A stretch of 64,000 nucleotides of DNA from Leclercia sp. 29361 (GTDB taxonomy: Bacteria; Pseudomonadota; Gammaproteobacteria; Enterobacterales; Enterobacteriaceae): NCBI RefSeq assembly GCF_011290365.1, contig NZ_CP049786.1:1178001-1242000 (forward strand). The letters run 5' to 3'. Under the pieces are notes generated by a model. The model was not told the DNA's origin and did no database searches. It was given only the letters and a program-made list of their open reading frames with translations. A program made the position numbers and the translations under genes. Positions 566-50,281 of this stretch are shown piece by piece. The first letter of the stretch is position 1. Each line of letters starts with the position of its first letter.

Positions 566-1090
<525 letters not shown>

Positions 1091-1132
1091 TCAGAAGAGG
1101 TTAAAAAATAGCACCATCTTGCGCATATAGTG

Positions 1133-1162
1133 TTGGCAGTGATGGTCACTTTGAGCGACAAT
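1133..1162 (+). promoter_or_regulatory. Putative sigma70 promoter of chiX
   Basis: A -35 box TTGGCA (1133-1138) and a -10-like GACAAT (1157-1162) are separated by 18 bp. They would start transcription near 1169, where the chiX-like sequence begins. The placement is inferred from spacing. Confidence 0.6.
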
Positions 1163-1168
1163 CGGCTC

Positions 1169-1247
1169 AACCGGGGGTCTCCTCCGGCATAATAACAACG
1201 ATGAAATTCCTCTTTGACGGGCCAATAGAAATATTGGCCACTTTTTT
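1169..1247 (+). ncRNA. chiX: ChiX (MicM/SroB) small regulatory RNA
   Basis: ChiX is an Hfq-dependent sRNA that silences the chitoporin mRNA chiP and is itself consumed by the chb mRNA trap. The ybaK-ybaP gap here contains the conserved chiX body: a 5' hairpin (CCGGGGGTCTCCTCCGG), GGCATAATAA, the conserved seed region ATGAAATTCCTCTTTGACGG, and the terminator stem GGCCAATA-GAAA-TATTGGCC followed by T6. The seed and terminator match the E. coli RNA as I remember it, while the 5' hairpin differs in sequence but keeps its form. The 5' end is placed from the promoter and is approximate. The T-tract overlaps the stop codon of ybaP on the opposite strand. Confidence 0.93.
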
Positions 1248-2040
1248 ATCTCAGCAACGACGGCAAATTTCCCTCGCCGTATAAATGTAATGCCCCAACC
1301 GCCACCACATAGCGTCCTGCAGGCAGCGCGTGCAGCTTTTCGCACCACGCCTGGTTACGCTCGTGCATCAGCACGTCATACAGCGATTCGCTGAAGGTCG
1401 CCGGCAGCGCCAGCCTGTCGACGACAGGGGGCGAATCCAGCCACCAGCTCACCATAGTCTGCAGCAGGCGCGCGTTGGTATGCCAGTGAGTCAGGGTATC
1501 TTCCAGCAGCAATAATCCGTCGTTCGGCATCTGGCGCAGCAGGGCAATCTGACTGTCGGCCCCTTCCAGCTCGATAATGGGCAGTTGCTGCGCGCGTGCG
1601 GCATTCAACAGCTGGTAATCAATGCCGTAATCCCCGCGCAGCCCCAGACGCTGTGCCTGAGTGGCCTGCAACACCATCGCGATCTGCCACAGCGGCTGGC
1701 TCTCCAGCATGGACAGCGATAACCCCAGCTCGTCGGCAAGCCGCTCCAGCTCCGCCAGCTGACTGGCGCTAAGACGTTCATTCAGCGGAGGCGGGATCGC
1801 CAGCCCCTCGAAGGGCGACTCATTACCTGAGATATCCGCTTCCACGATCAGCGCATCGGCGTGACGCAGCCTGGCGATCAGCCCCTCGGGTAGAGGAGAC
1901 ATATCCCGGGTGCCCATATGGATGCTGCCGACCAGATGCAGATGCTGCCCGCCGGGCAGGGAAATATCGAGGCCCGGCCAGCGATAGCGGCGGGGGAACA
2001 GGGCGCGAAACGATGCTTTTATACGTTGAAACAGACTCAT
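1246..2040 (-). CDS. ybaP: YbaP, TraB/GumN-family protein
   Basis: This 264-residue protein of the TraB/GumN (ChaN-like) superfamily is collinear with E. coli YbaP. The family signature HLVGSIHMGTRDM sits near residues 32-44, and a second conserved motif with VAVGALHLYGEG lies near the C-terminus. Family members are proposed metalloproteases or erythromycin-esterase-like hydrolases; no substrate is known for YbaP. The start at 2040 (MSLFQRIK) is taken because it aligns with the E. coli N-terminus; an upstream in-frame start would add 18 residues. Its stop codon overlaps the chiX terminator. Confidence 0.9.
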   Translation of the reverse strand: MSLFQRIKASFRALFPRRYRWPGLDISLPGGQHLHLVGSIHMGTRDMSPLPEGLIARLRHADALIVEADISGNESPFEGLAIPPPLNERLSASQLAELERLADELGLSLSMLESQPLWQIAMVLQATQAQRLGLRGDYGIDYQLLNAARAQQLPIIELEGADSQIALLRQMPNDGLLLLEDTLTHWHTNARLLQTMVSWWLDSPPVVDRLALPATFSESLYDVLMHERNQAWCEKLHALPAGRYVVAVGALHLYGEGNLPSLLR

Positions 2041-42466: not shown

Positions 42467-43861
42467 GTGAAAAACGCGTCATCCGCTTCAGGCAATGGTG
42501 TTGCTGAAGCCTCGTCGGAACAGACACCGACGCTGCATCGTGGTTTACAGAACCGACATATTCAACTTATCGCCCTCGGTGGCGCCATCGGCACCGGGCT
42601 GTTCCTCGGCATCGGTCCCGCTATTCAGATGGCCGGCCCGGCCGTACTGCTGGGTTATGCCATCGCGGGCATTATCGCTTTTCTGATCATGCGCCAGCTC
42701 GGCGAGATGGTGGTGGAAGAGCCGGTGTCCGGCTCCTTCGCCCACTTTGCCTATAAATACTGGGGCCCGTTTGCCGGCTTCCTCTCCGGCTGGAACTACT
42801 GGGTGATGTTCGTGCTGGTGGGCATGGCAGAGCTGACCGCCGCGGGCATCTATATGCAGTACTGGCTCCCGGACGTGCCGACCTGGATCTGGGCGGCGGT
42901 GTTCTTCATCATCATTAACGCCGTTAACCTGGTGAACGTGCGCCTGTACGGTGAGACCGAGTTCTGGTTCGCCTTAATCAAGGTGCTGGCGATCATCGGC
43001 ATGATCGGCTTTGGCCTGTGGCTGCTCTTCTCCGGACACGGCGGCGAGCGGGCAACCATCGACAACCTCTGGCAGCACGGCGGCTTCCTCGCCACCGGCT
43101 GGAAAGGGCTGGTGCTGTCGCTGGCGGTGATCATGTTTTCCTTTGGCGGGCTGGAGCTGATCGGCATTACCGCCGCCGAAGCGCAGGATCCGCATAAAAG
43201 TATCCCGAAAGCGGTCAACCAGGTGGTGTACCGTATTCTGCTGTTCTATATCGGTTCGCTGGTGGTGTTACTGGCGCTCTATCCGTGGGTGGAAGTGAAG
43301 TCCGACAGCAGCCCGTTTGTGATGATTTTCCACGATCTGAACAGCAACGTGGTGGCTTCGGCGCTCAACTTTGTGATTCTGGTGGCCTCGCTGTCGGTTT
43401 ACAACAGCGGCGTCTACTCCAACAGCCGGATGCTGTTTGGCCTCTCGGTGCAGGGCAACGCGCCGAAGTTTTTAACCCGCGTCAGCCGTCGCGGCGTGCC
43501 GGTGAACTCCCTGCTGCTCTCCGGGGGCATTACCTCCCTGGTGGTGCTGGTCAACTATCTGCTGCCGCACGAAGCCTTTGGCCTGCTGATGGCCCTGGTG
43601 GTCGCGACATTGCTGCTGAACTGGATCATGATCTGCCTGGCGCACCTGCGTTTCCGCGCGGCGATGCGTCGCAAAGGGCGTGAGACCCAGTTCAAAGCGC
43701 TACTCTACCCGGCGGGGAACTACATCTGTATCGCCTTCCTGGCGATGATCCTGGTGCTGATGTGCACCATGGACGGCATGCGCACCTCGGCCATTCTGTT
43801 GCCGGTGTGGATTGTGTTCCTGTTTGCGGCGTTTAAATTGTCACGGCGGAAGGCGAGTTAA
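42467..43861 (+). CDS. pheP: PheP, phenylalanine-specific permease
   Basis: PheP imports phenylalanine by proton symport (APC superfamily). The 464-residue protein has 12 helices and matches E. coli PheP closely: TPTLHRGLQNRHIQLIALGGAIGTGLFLGIG near the start, GYAIAGIIAFLIMRQLGEMVVEEPVSGSF, and a C-terminal LSRRKAS. E. coli has pheP and ybdG adjacent; here about 5 kb of accessory DNA separates them. No cus cluster precedes it. Confidence 0.96.
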   Translation: MKNASSASGNGVAEASSEQTPTLHRGLQNRHIQLIALGGAIGTGLFLGIGPAIQMAGPAVLLGYAIAGIIAFLIMRQLGEMVVEEPVSGSFAHFAYKYWGPFAGFLSGWNYWVMFVLVGMAELTAAGIYMQYWLPDVPTWIWAAVFFIIINAVNLVNVRLYGETEFWFALIKVLAIIGMIGFGLWLLFSGHGGERATIDNLWQHGGFLATGWKGLVLSLAVIMFSFGGLELIGITAAEAQDPHKSIPKAVNQVVYRILLFYIGSLVVLLALYPWVEVKSDSSPFVMIFHDLNSNVVASALNFVILVASLSVYNSGVYSNSRMLFGLSVQGNAPKFLTRVSRRGVPVNSLLLSGGITSLVVLVNYLLPHEAFGLLMALVVATLLLNWIMICLAHLRFRAAMRRKGRETQFKALLYPAGNYICIAFLAMILVLMCTMDGMRTSAILLPVWIVFLFAAFKLSRRKAS

Positions 43862-43865
43862 TCCT

Positions 43866-43897
43866 GAAAATGGCCTGCGATTGCAGGCCATTTTGTT
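43866..43897. terminator. Bidirectional terminator between pheP and the antitoxin gene
   Basis: AAAATGGCCTGC (43867-43878) pairs perfectly with GCAGGCCATTTT (43883-43894) over a GATT loop. It serves pheP on the plus strand and ends the minus-strand antitoxin gene, whose stop it touches. Confidence 0.9.
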
Positions 43898-44195
43898 AAA
43901 AATGTAAGGCAACGCGCTTGCCGGTCGGAAGGGTGACATCAATACTCACTTCGCCCCCCAGAGCAGTAACATAGCGTTTAAGTGTTGAAAGGCGTGGATC
44001 GTTATCCGGCTGCTCTATCTTTGCAACCGTAGGTTGTTTAACTCCCATCGCGAGAGCAAGTTCCGTCTGTGAAATATTGAGTTCTTCACGCAGTTGATTC
44101 AGCGCGACAATAATACGCAGCTCCTCAACTTTAGCGGCAATTCGCTCCTGACTTTCTTCACTCTGCTGGGCCATGAGTTGTTTTAACGTTGCCAT
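43896..44195 (-). CDS. Orphan HTH antitoxin (HigA/XRE type)
   Basis: The product has 99 residues with an XRE helix-turn-helix (NISQTELALAMGVKQPTVAKIEQPDNDPRLSTLKRYVTALGGEV). It is the antitoxin half of a type II system of the order toxin-antitoxin. Just upstream on the same strand only the tail of the toxin remains (44183-44290), so it now stands alone, preserved but without a visible partner. Its start overlaps that toxin remnant by 13 bases, the normal coupling. It may now regulate other targets. Confidence 0.85.
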   Translation of the reverse strand: MATLKQLMAQQSEESQERIAAKVEELRIIVALNQLREELNISQTELALAMGVKQPTVAKIEQPDNDPRLSTLKRYVTALGGEVSIDVTLPTGKRVALHF

Positions 44196-44290: not shown

Positions 44291-44303
44291 CTATAACTGC
44301 AAT

Positions 44304-44425
44304 GCCCGGCGGCGCTGCGCTTGCACGGGCCTACAAAACCGTAGCCGGGTAAGCGCAGCCGTCACCCGGCACACATGCGAGCACATAGCAGAACCGTAGG
44401 CCGGGTAAGCGCAGCGCCACCCGGC
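44304..44425. repeat. Three tandem REP/BIME units
   Basis: Units lie at 44304-44334, 44341-44370 and 44396-44425. They alternate in orientation (ALTERNATE BIME pattern) with GCCGGGTAAGCGCAGC-type cores. They occupy the gap created by the truncated toxin and precede the accessory operon. Confidence 0.8.
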
Positions 44426-44500
44426 ACCTCTCCGCACCCATCCTCATCTTTATCGTGACCCCCTTCGCACTTCTCAATCAACTCACAGGATCTTTATTTT

Positions 44501-44544
44501 GTAATCGATTACTTTTCATGTGATACGGTTTTGTAATCGATTAC
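44501..44544 (+). promoter_or_regulatory. Twin identical palindromic operators before the accessory operon
   Basis: GTAATCGATTAC occurs twice, at 44501-44512 and 44533-44544, inside the shared 20-bp unit TTTTGTAATCGATTACTTTT. The centres are 32 bp apart, three helical turns. The CG-centred dyads are typical of LacI-family operators, and the LacI-type gene at 48055 ends the operon. The second site is 15 bases from the first gene start, so binding would block transcription or initiation. Confidence 0.82.
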
Positions 44545-44559
44545 TTTTTAAGGGTGGGG

Positions 44560-45804
44560 ATGATCATGGTGTCAACAACTGAAAGTAGTGGAAAGGTGAT
44601 AGGGCAGCACCGGATGCTGGTGCCGCGCCTGTCGCTAATGATGTTCCTGCAATTTTTTATCTGGGGTAGCTGGTCGGTGACCCTCGGTCTGGTGATGACC
44701 CAGCACAACATGTCATTGCTGATCGGCGATGCTTTCTCTGCCGGGCCGATCGCCTCGATTCTGTCGCCGTTCGTCCTCGGCATGCTGGTGGACCGCTTCT
44801 TCGCCTCGCAAAAGGTGATGGCGGTGATGCACCTCGCCGGGGCGGCGATCCTGTGGTTCGTACCGGGCGCGTTGATCGCGGAAAACGGCGCGCTGCTGAT
44901 CGGCCTGCTGTTCGGCTACACGCTCTGCTATATGCCGACCCTGGCGCTGACCAACAACATCGCCTTCCACAGCCTGGCGAACGTCGACAAGACCTTCCCG
45001 GTGGTTCGCGTGTTTGGCACCATCGGCTGGATTGTGGCCGGGATCTTTATCGGCGTCACCGGCGTGGCCTCCAGTGTTACCATCTTCCACGTGGCGGCGG
45101 CCAGCTCCGTTCTGCTGGCGCTCTACAGCCTGACGCTGCCGCACACGCCAGCGCCGGCCAAAGGGATGCCGGTGCAGATACGCGATCTGTTCTGCGCTGA
45201 CGCCTTTGCCCTGCTGAAAACCCGTCACTTCTTTATCTTCTGCCTGTGCGCGATGCTGATCTCCGTGCCGCTGGGCACCTACTACGCCTACACCGCCTCC
45301 TATCTGGCGGATGCCGGTATTGCCGACGTCAGTACCGCCATGTCCTTCGGCCAGATGTCTGAAATCTTCTTCATGCTGGTGATCCCGCTGCTGTTCCGCC
45401 GTCTGGGCGTGAAATATATGCTGCTGATCGGCATGCTGGCGTGGTTCGTCCGTTACGCGATGTTTGCCATGGGCGTAAGTGAAGAAGGCCGCATTCTGCT
45501 GTACCTCGGCATCCTGCTGCACGGCGTCTGCTATGACTTCTTCTTTGTGGTGGGCTTTATCTACACCGACCGCGTGGCGGGCGAAAAGGTAAAAGGCCAG
45601 GCGCAGAGCATGATCGTGATGTTCACTTACGGTATCGGCATGCTACTGGGCTCGCAGATCTCGGGCGCGCTCTACAACCGTCTGGTGGCCGGGCAACCCG
45701 TGCCCGAGGCGTGGGTAACATTCTGGTGGATCCCGGCGGTGGCTGCTGCCGTGATTGCACTCGTTTTCCTTGTCTCGTTCAAATATGAAGATGACAAGGC
45801 GTAA
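44560..45804 (+). CDS. Nucleoside:H+ symporter family (NupG/XapB-like) permease
   Basis: The 414-residue, 12-helix permease is of the NHS family (MFS). Its N-terminus FLQFFIWGSWSVTLGLVM and middle ALFKT-like RHFFIFCLCAMLISVPLGTYY resemble NupG, and the late motif FDFFNIS-like CYDFFFVVGFIYTDR supports it. The start ATG at 44560 has AAGGGTGGGG ahead; GTG 44554 and ATG 44566 are alternatives. It is the first gene after the twin operators and is followed at 14 bases by the isomerase gene. The substrate is probably a nucleoside or glycoside; this cannot be fixed from sequence. Confidence 0.85.
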   Translation: MIMVSTTESSGKVIGQHRMLVPRLSLMMFLQFFIWGSWSVTLGLVMTQHNMSLLIGDAFSAGPIASILSPFVLGMLVDRFFASQKVMAVMHLAGAAILWFVPGALIAENGALLIGLLFGYTLCYMPTLALTNNIAFHSLANVDKTFPVVRVFGTIGWIVAGIFIGVTGVASSVTIFHVAAASSVLLALYSLTLPHTPAPAKGMPVQIRDLFCADAFALLKTRHFFIFCLCAMLISVPLGTYYAYTASYLADAGIADVSTAMSFGQMSEIFFMLVIPLLFRRLGVKYMLLIGMLAWFVRYAMFAMGVSEEGRILLYLGILLHGVCYDFFFVVGFIYTDRVAGEKVKGQAQSMIVMFTYGIGMLLGSQISGALYNRLVAGQPVPEAWVTFWWIPAVAAAVIALVFLVSFKYEDDKA

Positions 45805-45818
45805 TTTCTGGAGGTGGT

Positions 45819-46844
45819 ATGAGGACGATTAAAGGCCCGGGAATTTTTCTGTCGCAGTTTATCGGTGGGCAACCGCCGTTTAACACCCTCGACGGGCTGG
45901 CAGGCTGGGCAGCAGAAAAGGGTTATAAAGCGCTGCAAATTCCCTGCAATCATAAGGCAATTTTTGACGTGGAGCTGGCGGCTGAAAGCCAGACCTACTG
46001 CGACGACATCAGCGGCAAGCTGGCCCAGCACGGGCTGGTCATCAGCGAGCTCTCCACTCATCTGGAAGGGCAGCTGATCGCCGTTAACCCGGCCTACGAC
46101 GAGGCGTTTGATAACTTTGCCCCGCAGGCGGTGCGCGGCAATGCGGCCGCCCGCCAGGCGTGGGCTACCGATATCGTGACAAAGGCGGCGGTGGCCTCGG
46201 CACGGCTCGGGTTAACCGCCCACGCCACCTTTTCGGGATCGCTGGCCTGGCCGTTCATGTACCCCTGGCCGCCGCATAACGAGGCGCGCTTTGAAGAGGC
46301 CTTCAATGAACTGGCCCGCCGCTGGCGGCCGATTCTGGACGCCTTCGACGAGCAGGGGGTGAATGTCTGCTATGAGATCCACCCCGGCGAAGATCTGCAC
46401 GACGGCGTCACCTTCGAACGTTTCCTTCAGCTTCTGGATAACCACCCGCGCTGCAATATCCTCTACGATCCGAGCCACCTGCTGCTGCAGCAGATGGATT
46501 ACCTGACCTTTATCGACCACTACCACACCCGCATCAAGGCATTTCACGTCAAGGATGCCGAGTACCGTCCCAACGGGCGCAGCGGGGTATATGGCGGGTA
46601 CCAGAGCTGGATCAACCGCGCCGGGCGCTTCCGCTCCCCGGGTGACGGGCAGATCGACTTCAAGGGCATCTTCAGCAAGCTGACCCAGTACGACTATGAC
46701 GGCTGGGCAGTGCTGGAGTGGGAATGTTGCCTGAAGGATGGCGACACCGGGGCGCGGGAAGGGCGCGAGTTTATCTCCCGCCACATTATTCCGGTTTCCG
46801 ATCGGGCATTTGACGATTTCGCCGCAGGAGAACTTCATGATTAA
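45819..46844 (+). CDS. Sugar phosphate isomerase/epimerase (xylose isomerase-like TIM barrel)
   Basis: The 341-residue AP-endonuclease-2/xylose-isomerase-like TIM barrel has the metal-site motifs CYEIHPGEDLHDG (Glu), NILYDPSHLLLQ (Asp), IKAFHVKDAEY (His) and WAVLEWECCLKDG (Glu). The family covers isomerases, epimerases, myo-inosose dehydratases and enzymes that cleave 3-keto-glycosides. The ribosome site GGAGGTGGT precedes ATG. Its last 8 bases overlap the start of the oxidoreductase gene, so the two are coupled. Reaction not established. Confidence 0.85.
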   Translation: MRTIKGPGIFLSQFIGGQPPFNTLDGLAGWAAEKGYKALQIPCNHKAIFDVELAAESQTYCDDISGKLAQHGLVISELSTHLEGQLIAVNPAYDEAFDNFAPQAVRGNAAARQAWATDIVTKAAVASARLGLTAHATFSGSLAWPFMYPWPPHNEARFEEAFNELARRWRPILDAFDEQGVNVCYEIHPGEDLHDGVTFERFLQLLDNHPRCNILYDPSHLLLQQMDYLTFIDHYHTRIKAFHVKDAEYRPNGRSGVYGGYQSWINRAGRFRSPGDGQIDFKGIFSKLTQYDYDGWAVLEWECCLKDGDTGAREGREFISRHIIPVSDRAFDDFAAGELHD

Positions 46845-47979
46845 CGTCGGCATCATCGGCAGCGGTTTTATTGGCCCGGCGCACATCGAAGCCCTGCGCC
46901 GTCTCGGCTTTGTGCAGGTCGTCGCCCTGTGCGACGGCTCTCAGGCGCAGGCCGAAGAGAAAGCCCGGGCGCTGAACATTCCCCACGCCTATGGCAACGT
47001 GGACGCCCTGCTGGCCCACCCGGATCTGCACGTGGTGCACAACTGCACGCCGAATCATCTGCATGCGGAGATCAACCGCCAGATCCTGCGCGCCGGAAAG
47101 CATGTCTTCTCGGAAAAACCGCTGTGCATGACCCCGGACGAGGCGCGGGAACTGGTGGCCCTGGCGGAGCAGGCGGGCGTGGTGCACGGCGTGAGCTTTG
47201 TCTATCGCCAGTTTGCAATGGTGCGCCAGGCGGCCAGCATGGTAGAGGCGGGCACGCTGGGGCGACTGTTTGCTGCCCACGGCAGTTATCTGCAGGACTG
47301 GATGCTGCTGGAAACGGATTACAACTGGCGGGTCGACGCGGCGCTTGGGGGAGCGTCTCGCGCGGTGGCGGACATCGGTTCCCACTGGTGCGACACCATC
47401 CAGTTCCTGACCGGACGGCGCATTACCGAAGTCATGGCCGACCTCTCTATCGTCTGGCCGACCCGCAAGGCCAACGTGGCCGGGAACCAGACCTTCAGCC
47501 AGGCGGGCGATGCGGTGTATGAAGACAAGCCCGTCACCACCGAGGATTTCGGCTCGGTGCTGTTCCGCTTCGACGACGGCAGCAAAGGCAGCTTTACCGT
47601 CTCGCAGGTCAGCGCCGGACGGAAAAACCGCCTCAGCCTCGAGGTCAACGGCAGCGAAGGCTCTGTGGCCTGGGATCAGGAGGTGCCTCAGCAGCTGTGG
47701 GTTGGGCATCGCGCCCTGGCCAATCAGACTCTGACGGACGATCCGGGCCTGATGAACCGCGACGTGGCCGACAGCGCCCACTTCCCGGGCGGCCACATTG
47801 AGGGTTGGCCGGACGCCTTTAAGAACATGATGGCGCAGTTTTATCGCGCGGTGCAGGCGGGCAGGATGCCGGAAAAACCGCTGTTTGCCACCTTCCACGA
47901 CGGGGCGAACGTGATGTATATCATTGACGCGATAGTAAAAAGCCATCAGCAGCAGCGCTGGGTCAGCGTCGCGCAGTAA
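46837..47979 (+). CDS. Gfo/Idh/MocA-family sugar oxidoreductase
   Basis: The 380-residue NAD(P)-dependent dehydrogenase has Rossmann motif GIIGSGFIGPAHI near residues 4-16 and the catalytic EKP signature (FSEKPLCMTPDEARELV) near residue 91. The C-terminal alpha/beta domain contains GGASRAVADIGSHWCDTIQFLTG, where the DxGxHxxD motif is the active-site His. Start ATG 46837 (after GCAGGAGAACTTC) lies within the end of the isomerase gene. Oxidation of a sugar hydroxyl followed by isomerisation or cleavage by the TIM-barrel enzyme is a plausible route; the substrate is unknown. Confidence 0.88.
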   Translation: MINVGIIGSGFIGPAHIEALRRLGFVQVVALCDGSQAQAEEKARALNIPHAYGNVDALLAHPDLHVVHNCTPNHLHAEINRQILRAGKHVFSEKPLCMTPDEARELVALAEQAGVVHGVSFVYRQFAMVRQAASMVEAGTLGRLFAAHGSYLQDWMLLETDYNWRVDAALGGASRAVADIGSHWCDTIQFLTGRRITEVMADLSIVWPTRKANVAGNQTFSQAGDAVYEDKPVTTEDFGSVLFRFDDGSKGSFTVSQVSAGRKNRLSLEVNGSEGSVAWDQEVPQQLWVGHRALANQTLTDDPGLMNRDVADSAHFPGGHIEGWPDAFKNMMAQFYRAVQAGRMPEKPLFATFHDGANVMYIIDAIVKSHQQQRWVSVAQ

Positions 47980-47982
47980 CAG

Positions 47983-48004
47983 GCTGCCCGGTACGCCGGG
48001 CAGC
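47983..48004 (+). terminator. Hairpin between oxidoreductase and LacI-type regulator genes
   Basis: GCTGCCCGG (47983-47991) pairs with CCGGGCAGC (47996-48004) over a TACG tetraloop. AAATTT follows, a weak tail, so it probably lowers readthrough into the regulator gene. Confidence 0.65.
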
Positions 48005-48054
48005 AAATTTATGGTAGCCTGCTGCAAACGCTAACTGCAGGATCACTCGTCGCT

Positions 48055-49035
48055 ATGTCAATTCAGAAAATCGCCCAACTGGCGGGCGTCTCGGTGGCGA
48101 CGGTATCGCGCGTGCTGAATAACAGCGATACCGTCAAAGCCAAAAACCGCGATCGCGTCTTGCAGGCGATTAAAGAGGCTAACTACCAGCCCAATCTTCT
48201 CGCTCGTCAGCTGCGCACCTCGCGCAGCTATATGATCCTGGTGATGGTCTCCAACATCGCCAACCCGTTCTGCGCCGAAGTAGTGAAGGGCATTGAGGAG
48301 CAGGCGGAGAAAAACGGCTACCGCATTCTGCTGTGCAACTCCGGCTCCGATATTGAACGCTCCCGCTCGGGGCTGAGCCTGCTGACCGGCAAAATGGTCG
48401 ACGGCATTATCACCATGGATGCCTTTACCCGCCTCACCGAACTGGCGGCGCTGATTGGCGATGCGCCCTGGGTGCAGTGCGCCGAATACGCCGATGCCGG
48501 GGCGGTCTCCTGCGTCGGGATCAACGATGTCGACGCCTCCCAGCACGTGGTCAGCCGTCTGGCCGACGGCGGACGCCAGCGGATTGCGCTTATCAACCAC
48601 GATCTGAGCTACAAATATGCCCGCCTGCGCGAGCGGGGCTACAAAAGCGTCCTGCACCTGCGGGATCTGTCGTATCAGGCTATTGAGTACGCCAGCGATC
48701 TCAGCGCGGCGGCCGGGATGGCGGCGATGACCAGACTGCTGGCGGCTGAACCGCGCCCGGATGCGGTGTTTGCGGTGTCTGACACCCTGGCGGCGGGAGC
48801 GTTACGCGCTATCGAAAAGGCCGGGTTACGCGTGCCGCAGGATATTGCGGTGGTCGGGTTCGACGGCACCGAGCTGTCGGAGATGGTCTCCCCGCAGCTC
48901 AGCACTATCGAGCAGCCGTCGCGGGATATCGGGCGCAAGGCGGTCGATCTGCTGCTGAATAAAATCGACAACCCCGATGCCCCCACCGAGCGGGTGATGA
49001 TGAACTGGCACTTTATTTCCCGCGCCAGCACCTGA
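48055..49035 (+). CDS. LacI/CytR-family regulator of the accessory operon
   Basis: The 326-residue repressor opens with the helix-turn-helix SIQKIAQLAGVSVATVSRVLN, then hinge NLLARQLRTSRSYMILVMVSNIANPF, then the sugar-binding core. The end ERVMMNWHFISRAST is like CytR. It ends one base before the convergent ybdG stop. The likely targets are the two palindromes at 44501-44544. An inducer derived from the permease substrate is expected. The ATG has only a distant Shine-Dalgarno (GCAGGA, 12 bases away). Confidence 0.88.
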   Translation: MSIQKIAQLAGVSVATVSRVLNNSDTVKAKNRDRVLQAIKEANYQPNLLARQLRTSRSYMILVMVSNIANPFCAEVVKGIEEQAEKNGYRILLCNSGSDIERSRSGLSLLTGKMVDGIITMDAFTRLTELAALIGDAPWVQCAEYADAGAVSCVGINDVDASQHVVSRLADGGRQRIALINHDLSYKYARLRERGYKSVLHLRDLSYQAIEYASDLSAAAGMAAMTRLLAAEPRPDAVFAVSDTLAAGALRAIEKAGLRVPQDIAVVGFDGTELSEMVSPQLSTIEQPSRDIGRKAVDLLLNKIDNPDAPTERVMMNWHFISRAST

Positions 49036-49036
49036 G

Positions 49037-50281
49037 TTATTTCGCCAGGACCCCGGCCAGGGAGCGAATATCGTTTCCGGTCGGCGTCTGGTGAATGCGC
49101 AGACCAAATTCATCGATCACCGCGAAGATATGATCGAAAATATCGGCCTGAATCGCCTCATATTCCGACCAGATCACGGTGTTGGTAAACGCATATATTT
49201 CAATCGGTAGCCCGTTGGCGTCCGGGGCTAATTGCCGCACCATCAGGGTCATATCCTGACGAATACGCGGATGGTTGCGCAGATATTCATTCAGGTAGGC
49301 GCGGAAGGTGCCAATATTGGTCATCTTGCGCAGATTGAGCACCGATTCCCCTTCGCCATTCTCCTGATTCCACAGCGTAATTTCCTCGTGGCGCGTGGCC
49401 ATATAGGGCTTGAGCAGCTTCGCCTGAATCAGCTGCTGCTGCTCCTGTTCGTCGAGAAAATGGATGCTGGTGGTATCAATATTCAGGCTGCGCTTAATCC
49501 GCCGCCCGCCGGAGGCTGACATCCCGCTCCAGTTGATAAAGGCGTCGGAGACCAGCGCCCAGGTCGGAATGGTGGTGATGGTGTTATCAAAGTTCCGCAC
49601 CTTAACGGTGGTCAGGCCGATATCGGTCACCGTGCCGTTAGCACCATATTTCGGCATCTCCAGCCAGTCGCCGAGCTTGAGCATATCGTTGGCCGAGAGC
49701 TGAATTCCCGCCACCAGCCCGAGGATCGGATCTTTAAACACCAGCATTAATACCGCGGCCATCGCGCCGAGGCCGCTAATCAGAATAGCGGGGGACTGGC
49801 CGATCAGCAGGGAGATAATAAGAATGCCCACCAGAATGGCGCTCACCAGCTTGATACCCTGGAAGATCCCCTTCAGCGGCAGCTGCGAGGCGGTGGCCAT
49901 CTTTTGCGACAGGTTGAAAATCACGTCCAGCAGCGAGAAGAACGCCAGCAGGGCGTACACCATCACCCACAGCCTGGCGCAGGTGGTAAGTATTTCCGCC
50001 GCGTCGCTGCCTTTTTGCAGCCACAATACCGCCTGAACGTTGACGATTATCCCCTGCAGGGTAAAGGCCAGACGGTGAAATAACTTATTCTGGGTAATGA
50101 TTTGCAGCCATAAATGGCTGCTGGCCTGGGCGCGTTTCTCGAACGCCCGGAGCACCACTTTGTGCAGAATAAAATGAATAATCAGTGCAGTAAGAAAAAT
50201 AATGCCAAAAATGATCGCGAGGGAGGTGGTGTGATTAATTTCAATACCTGTCTCTTCGACCAGGGAAATGAACTCCTGCAT
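49037..50281 (-). CDS. ybdG: YbdG, miniconductance mechanosensitive channel (MscS family)
   Basis: YbdG is a MscS-type channel of low conductance. Of 414 residues, four to five N-terminal helices precede the pore helix and MscS beta domain: [70 protein letters not shown] is the conserved MscS core. The length and sequence match E. coli YbdG. It ends two bases after the convergent LacI-type gene. The gene is followed upstream by the exporter at 50349 on the same strand. Confidence 0.95.

Follow-up and report, generated by a model that had tools for sequence, protein, structure and literature searches.

In Agrobacterium tumefaciens, O-glucosides are degraded by four enzymes: the dehydrogenase GlycDH oxidizes C3 of the glucoside, the 3-keto-O-glucoside eliminase AtOGE removes the aglycone to leave 2-hydroxy-3-keto-glucal, AtHYD hydrates this intermediate (on evidence called preliminary there), and a Gfo oxidoreductase reduces 3-keto-glucose to glucose, as described in PMC10628242. 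The levoglucosan pathway of Bacillus smithii, LgdA-LgdB1-LgdB2-LgdC, is reported to follow the same order of oxidation, elimination, hydration, and reduction through the same intermediate, with LgdB2 acting as a bifunctional enzyme of low-affinity elimination and of hydration (PMC7676230). Here we analyze a 64,000-nucleotide stretch from Leclercia sp. 29361 (hereafter the window; G000:C1:1178001-1242000 of the 4.94-Mb single-contig genome G000) that contains an operon for a permease, a homolog of 2-hydroxy-3-keto-glucal hydratase (HYD), a Gfo/Idh oxidoreductase, and a LacI-family regulator. We consider it reasonably likely that this operon, together with a distant gene for an AtOGE-like eliminase (OGE), constitutes a LacI regulon for salvage of 3-keto-glucosyl compounds without the known oxidation step. 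The oxidation-elimination route itself is already known from A. tumefaciens; what would be new is an enterobacterial salvage regulon that lacks the known type of oxidase, with its chemistry predicted from homology.

The four genes are all on the plus strand and encode an MFS permease of the Nuc_H_symport family (YegT/NupG-like, 44566-45804), HYD, a xylose-isomerase-like TIM barrel (45819-46844), a Gfo/Idh/MocA oxidoreductase (46837-47979, overlapping HYD by 8 bp), and the LacI-family regulator, the last gene of the operon (48055-49035). The coordinates and the Pfam domains of the products (Nuc_H_symport, AP_endonuc_2, GFO_IDH_MocA, and LacI) bear out a preliminary description of this DNA, which had reported four same-strand genes of these families behind two identical palindromes 32 bp apart. 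When HYD was compared with all PDB sequences, the best match was 8RO4, deposited as 2-hydroxy-3-keto-glucal hydratase (516 bits, E 4e-154), with 215 of 337 columns identical (63.8%) over residues 1-337 of 341; the second-best match scored 141.5 bits. HYD is thus a full-length homolog of the solved 2-hydroxy-3-keto-glucal hydratase, and 8RO4 is itself presumably AtHYD of A. tumefaciens. Neither YcjR nor DgpB is named among the four PDB matches of HYD at E 0.001, and no direct comparison with them was made. The same description had called the substrate undefined, a view that is not supported in full given the 64% identity of HYD to a named hydratase and the pathway published for A. tumefaciens (PMC10628242).

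The two proposed operators are identical 20-mers, TTTTGTAATCGATTACTTTT, at 44497-44516 and 44529-44548, which stand 32 bp apart directly before the permease gene and whose palindromic cores, GTAATCGATTAC, occupy 44501-44512 and 44533-44544. This core is present in exactly three copies in the 4.94-Mb genome, two at the operon and one before OGE, and a whole-genome search with one mismatch allowed returned no further copy of the 12-mer core. The 13-mer TGTAATCGATTAC also has three exact copies genome-wide, the third at 2520921, 1.3 Mb from the operon. At this third site the 20-mer TTTTGTAATCGATTACTTTT is found on the minus strand immediately before the OGE gene, and it is identical to that of the operon. 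Two one-mismatch palindromes were set aside: G000:C1:2447720 (L006) closely precedes a helix-turn-helix gene (905-1480, minus strand) and lies before a GNAT gene, and G000:C1:3103848 (L008) is within an open reading frame for a membrane protein.

The distribution of the core was then compared across named loci, which are the best 80 of at least 582 confirmed relatives found by scanning GTDB species genomes with HYD; related genomes and loci are non-independent samples, which applies to all counts and p values given here. These 80 loci (1.646 Mb) contain 145 copies of GTAATCGATTAC, all within 200 bp upstream of a permease or OGE gene, compared with four copies of the commonest among 179 other palindromes whose half-sites contain the same letters. 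A same-strand permease more than 55% identical is encoded in 69 loci, with at least one exact core within 200 bp upstream in 64 of them and two cores in 57. The five permease loci without a core are of the Serratia/Buttiauxella type (L131, L135, L137, L143, and L146); these and L148 have a variant operon in which lacI is divergent and HYD is followed by a distant Gfo/Idh. The spacing of the 57 operator pairs is 31 bp in 34 loci, 32 bp in 11, 30 bp in 9, and another value in 3. OGE genes more than 45% identical have a core upstream in 15 of 15 cases, and two cores in 9. A GTGA word at 44455-44458 (plus strand), 46 bp upstream of the operator 1 core, may be a CRP half site, as the same word is found at precisely that distance in 39 of the 57 operator-pair loci, compared with no more than six occurrences of the control word AGTG at any one distance. 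A study of LacI regulons gives peaks of pair spacing at 13, 22, and 32 bp, the last of which matches the pair in the window, and "ATCGAT" and "levoglucosan" are absent from its main text (PMC4052901). A limited literature search turned up no paper on the enterobacterial regulon.

As a second test of this association, the flanked pattern WWGTAATCGATTACWW was searched in 198 genomes of the family, in which the strong HYD matches are 61-100% identical; a genome with a broken HYD (G028) and weak IolE-like matches were left out of the counts. The pattern was found at 64 sites in 33 genomes, of which 52 precede a strong HYD gene by no more than 3 kb (three of these, in G056, are also near OGE), 5 are near OGE only, and 7 are elsewhere, so that 57 of 64 are at HYD or OGE. 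By genome, 30 had both site and HYD, 3 the site only, 9 HYD only, and 156 neither (p 3e-24, with genomes not independent), and a flanked site was within 3 kb of 28 of the 41 strong HYD loci. The sites found elsewhere are varied. A palindrome precedes a YdgJ-like Gfo/Idh gene in L165 (G068) and L179 (G002), one of these genomes being without a strong HYD, and these sites could mark either an extra regulon member or the site of another regulator. On a short contig, G064:C69 (L183), an operator pair with 30-bp spacing is bordered by a lacI fragment that looks orthologous and by an unrelated gene, and HYD is on a different contig; we take this locus to be rearranged or mis-assembled. The remaining three comprise one site close to a nupC-like gene (G087), one in front of a GalP-like gene (G154, L194), and one in G095.

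The regulator itself carries both PF00356 and PF13377 above cut-off, that is, a helix-turn-helix and a periplasmic-binding-like domain, and none of the 20 NCBIfam models listed for it reached its cut-off. This protein is predicted to bind the GTAATCGATTAC operators and, because lacI is the last gene of the operon, it is probably autoregulated. Comparison of genomes supports the earlier proposals of a common operon, of control by LacI, and of chemistry on keto-glycosides.

The unlinked gene behind the third operator encodes a 282-amino acid TIM barrel (G000:C1:2520066-2520914, minus strand; L017:7067-7915). Its best PDB match is 8BVK (205.7 bits, E 7.5e-60; the next scores 66.7 bits), which is the AtOGE structure (PMC10628242). 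The two proteins are 38% identical over 247 aligned columns, and all eight AtOGE residues checked, which are described as metal-binding or catalytic (Glu39, His66, His132, His134, Glu161, Asp163, His189, and Glu233), are kept in OGE. An alignment of 21 OGE proteins shows every one of these residues in all 21, apart from Glu39, which is present in 20 and opposite a gap in the other. The start of OGE resembles a signal peptide by eye, which suggests secretion, and the OGE starts compared are mostly of this kind (L140, L152, and L157 could not be judged). In the family sample, an OGE more than 50% identical is encoded in 5 of 198 genomes, all five with HYD and with a site at OGE; 23 other matches were weak (24-35%) and were not counted. 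Two genomes of a wider order sample (G421 and G384) likewise have OGE, HYD, and a site at OGE. OGE is located after lacI, in convergent orientation and with its own operators, in Pantoea, Erwinia, Mangrovibacter, Pectobacterium, and Brenneria. It is plasmid-borne in E. huaxiensis and in one isolate of the E. cloacae complex, where the operator again precedes it. Two K. pneumoniae plasmids (pSJ25_1 and NZ_CP138784.1; L160 and L161) carry front-shortened OGE copies that are 87-90% identical, have no exact operator, and are annotated as hypothetical protein; they are apparently decaying remnants of the plasmid form.

The step that defines the A. tumefaciens route, oxidation of C3, is the one for which no enzyme of the known type was found. 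The G000 genome has no match to PF05199 (GMC) or PF06439 (3-keto-disaccharide hydrolase), with controls positive in 5 of 14 and 4 of 14 genomes, respectively, and none to the GMC protein of the Pseudoxanthomonas L149 HYD cluster, which served as query in place of the GlycDH sequence itself; this search covered GMC-type oxidases, and oxidases of other families were not searched. In Pseudoxanthomonas (L149, L152, and L157) and [Pseudomonas] boreopolis (L155), HYD, permease, Gfo, OGE, a DUF1080 relative, and a GMC gene lie within ∼9 kb, and the products are 43-44% (permease; 43% in L149), 40-42% (Gfo), and 38-44% (OGE) identical to those of the window and OGE genes. When the L149 GMC protein was used to query an order sample of 295 genomes, with matches above 220 bits counted as strong, 18 genomes had a strong GMC and 17 of these had HYD (p 2e-14, with genomes not independent); the strong GMC gene started within 10 kb of HYD in 14 of 46 HYD genomes. 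This coupling differs by family, as a strong GMC was found in all HYD genomes of families f7 (16/16) and f6 (1/1) and in none of those of the window's family (0/11), f10 (0/10), f25 (0/6), f12 (0/1), or f9 (0/1). In the family sample, this query had relatives, no more than 30% identical over their length, in 75 of the 198 genomes, with none in the five that encode OGE; the OGE genome G421 of the order sample has two weak GMC relatives. In many genomes the GMC searches scored part of the first candidates (up to 7 per genome in the family sample and up to 4 in the order sample; 5 of 5 in G000). From this family pattern it appears that the route is often coupled to an oxidase and that enterobacteria of the window's kind keep the rest without it. 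G028 has a HYD gene interrupted by stop codons and, ∼1.6 kb away, a GMC fragment of 50 residues that shares 52% identity with the Pseudoxanthomonas protein (G028:C1:3838535-3841264), perhaps the remains of a former oxidase-bearing locus.

Because the defining C3 dehydrogenase was sought and not found, the system of the window is not a complete member of the A. tumefaciens route. It resembles that four-enzyme pathway in its homologous hydratase and eliminase and in having a Gfo/Idh gene beside the hydratase gene, and it differs in the lack of a detectable GMC-type GlycDH, the unlinked and secreted-looking eliminase, the MFS permease, and the LacI regulon with defined operators. Compared by description, the Lgd pathway is alike in reaction sequence, in its two TIM barrels, and in its Gfo/Idh enzymes, but it has an ABC importer in place of an MFS permease, and the window operon has only one Gfo, which falls below the levoglucosan dehydrogenase cut-off. 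The Caulobacter lactose route via 3-ketolactose, also compared by description, has LacABC and DUF1080 (PMC9007349), and neither GMC nor DUF1080 was found in G000.

The Gfo/Idh protein has 6A3F ("Putative dehydrogenase") as its best PDB sequence match (156.5 bits), which we take to be levoglucosan dehydrogenase, and its best NCBIfam model is also levoglucosan dehydrogenase, at 178.5 bits against a cut-off of 650. Among the proteins of the operon, scores were also low for the inositol 2-dehydrogenase (112.4 of 355 bits) and IolE (75.8 of 290 bits) models, and inositol catabolism was rejected since the IolE and IolG scores are far under cut-off. The Gfo also gave weak matches to DgpA-type glycoside enzymes (9m37, 72.5 bits; 7xr9, 67.8 bits). 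It is 40% identical to the Gfo of Pseudoxanthomonas L149. In the reading that we favor, it would be the terminal 3-keto-glucose reductase and would probably act at the last step rather than the first. The permease, a candidate importer of 3-keto sugars, exceeds the cut-off of Pfam Nuc_H_symport (335.5 bits, cut-off 25.9) and falls short of that of the NCBIfam nucleoside permease subfamily TIGR00889 (331.6 of 446.1 bits), with the putative transporter YegT as its best solved match. The earlier label "nucleoside-type" thus stands at the level of the Pfam family and not at that of the curated subfamily; nucleoside catabolism was rejected because of this cut-off and because the operon contains no nucleoside enzyme. 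The permease start is GTG 44554 in the list of open reading frames and ATG 44566 as suggested by relatives; the domain, NCBIfam, and PDB searches used 44563-45801, one codon longer at the front than ATG 44566.

In the mechanism that we propose, a LacI-family repressor would control two unlinked units through GTAATCGATTAC, the permease-HYD-Gfo-lacI operon and the distant OGE gene. The reaction directions, transported compound, OGE location, and substrate source are those predicted from homology and gene context. In the periplasm, OGE would cleave C3-oxidized glucosides to the aglycone and 2-hydroxy-3-keto-glucal; the permease would import this compound (or 3-keto-glucose), HYD would add water to 2-hydroxy-3-keto-glucal to give 3-keto-glucose, and Gfo/Idh would reduce 3-keto-glucose to glucose, with the repressor leaving its operators once the 3-keto sugar accumulates. 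Since no dehydrogenase of the known GMC type was found for C3 oxidation, the 3-keto substrate would probably come from other microbes or from an unrecognized oxidase. We tentatively extend this to a scenario in which enterobacteria with the regulon dropped C3 oxidation and scavenge 3-keto-glucosides, 2-hydroxy-3-keto-glucal, or 3-keto-glucose released by oxidizing Agrobacterium- or Pseudoxanthomonas-like neighbors, the secreted eliminase being a mobile, sometimes plasmid-borne addition that joins the chromosomal LacI regulon through the operator it carries.

Several observations weigh against the proposed salvage regulon. Of the 39 genomes with a strong HYD in the family sample, only 5 encode an OGE more than 50% identical, and a genome of the same genus (G431) has HYD but gave no OGE match at E 1e-20. 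The operon must therefore be able to function in the absence of OGE; its core function would then be either to import free 3-keto sugars or to include elimination by HYD. The Gfo step is the weakest assignment, as the protein shares ∼30% identity with its counterpart next to HYD in Rhizobium L195 and no Gfo more than 55% identical is present in 15 of the 69 loci with a close permease; six of these are the Serratia/Buttiauxella loci with a distant Gfo, and nine have no close Gfo between HYD and lacI (L103, L105, L106, L115, L116, L123, L124, L126, and L134). As for the regulation, no exact copy of the flanked pattern lies within 3 kb in 13 of the 41 strong HYD loci, two loci (L097, Klebsiella grimontii; L144, K. 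oxytoca) have the operon and operator pair and no lacI match in the 21 kb examined, and a promoter scan gave no sigma-70-like site at the operators. The signal peptides were judged by eye. Finally, GalR-type operators resemble the GTAATCGATTAC palindrome, which makes cross-binding possible.

The absence of OGE from many genomes would be accounted for by a self-contained cytosolic cycle, in which the permease imports an intact glucoside, Gfo/Idh oxidizes C3, HYD carries out both elimination and hydration, and Gfo/Idh acts a second time to reduce 3-keto-glucose to glucose, with OGE optional. This keeps the order of import, oxidation, and cleavage given in the preliminary description, an order that homology does not support, as by homology oxidation and elimination precede the hydratase and the eliminase is separate and secreted-looking. 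A bifunctional enzyme of elimination and hydration has a precedent in LgdB2 (PMC7676230), the Gfo has its weak DgpA-type matches, and the two Serratia/Buttiauxella-type loci that were checked (L131 and L143) have a second Gfo/Idh gene, placed after the permease and before HYD, so that the variant operon could hold its own cytosolic oxidase. We nevertheless regard such a cycle as rather unlikely, because AtHYD is reported to be inactive on 3-keto-phlorizin (PMC10628242), permease, HYD, and lacI are retained with no close Gfo between them in 9 of 69 loci, and a secreted-looking OGE under the same operator implies a 3-keto substrate outside the cytoplasm.

A different substrate, such as levoglucosan or another anhydro or inositol-type compound, seems improbable. 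The best solved match and best NCBIfam model of the Gfo point that way, the levoglucosan route shares the intermediate (PMC7676230), and one alphaproteobacterial HYD relative (Shinella) adjoins iol genes, but the levoglucosan dehydrogenase, inositol 2-dehydrogenase, and IolE scores are all under cut-off and the link to OGE points to 3-keto-O-glucosides. We give even less credence to the palindrome at OGE being bound by another LacI-family protein such as GalR, which would place OGE outside the regulon. The front of a GalP-like gene is a place where a GalR site is expected, and one flanked site was found there (G154, L194); against this, the 20-mer at OGE is identical to that of the operon, and in Pantoea, Erwinia, Mangrovibacter, Pectobacterium, and Brenneria, OGE with its own operators lies beside the same lacI.

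In the window, the operon is flanked by pheP (42467-43861) and by a mechanosensitive channel gene on the minus strand (49037-50281), presumably ybdG as labeled earlier. Both genes flank the operon in 25 of the 80 named loci, and pheP alone in 6 more, where DNA was examined. Among the named loci, that of Leclercia adecarboxylata L078 is the closest relative here, with six genes compared and their proteins 96-99% identical. The region from pheP to the operon contains a lone antitoxin-like helix-turn-helix gene (43896-44195, minus strand) and then GC-rich repeats, GCCGGGTAAGCGCAGC, in direct and inverted copies (44303-44426), which we take to be similar to REP/BIME elements. In E. coli (20,395 records from 5,426 genomes), no match was obtained by megablast with 44440-49040 or by blastn with the TIM-barrel gene, although records near the window's genome may have been excluded. 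The operon had been proposed to be lineage-specific, which agrees with these E. coli records and not with its presence in Enterobacter, Citrobacter, Klebsiella, Kluyvera, Pantoea, Erwinia, Pectobacterium, and others.

The enterobacterial records examined label these products generically, as isomerase/epimerase, Gfo/Idh oxidoreductase, MFS transporter, and LacI regulator. Our analysis would give this widespread operon a concrete pathway, intermediate, and regulator, and its operator motif can be used to find further members of the route in genomes. It also points to a non-hydrolytic glucoside route that is split between replicons and possibly between species; if the latter is true, 3-keto sugars would be a currency of cross-feeding.

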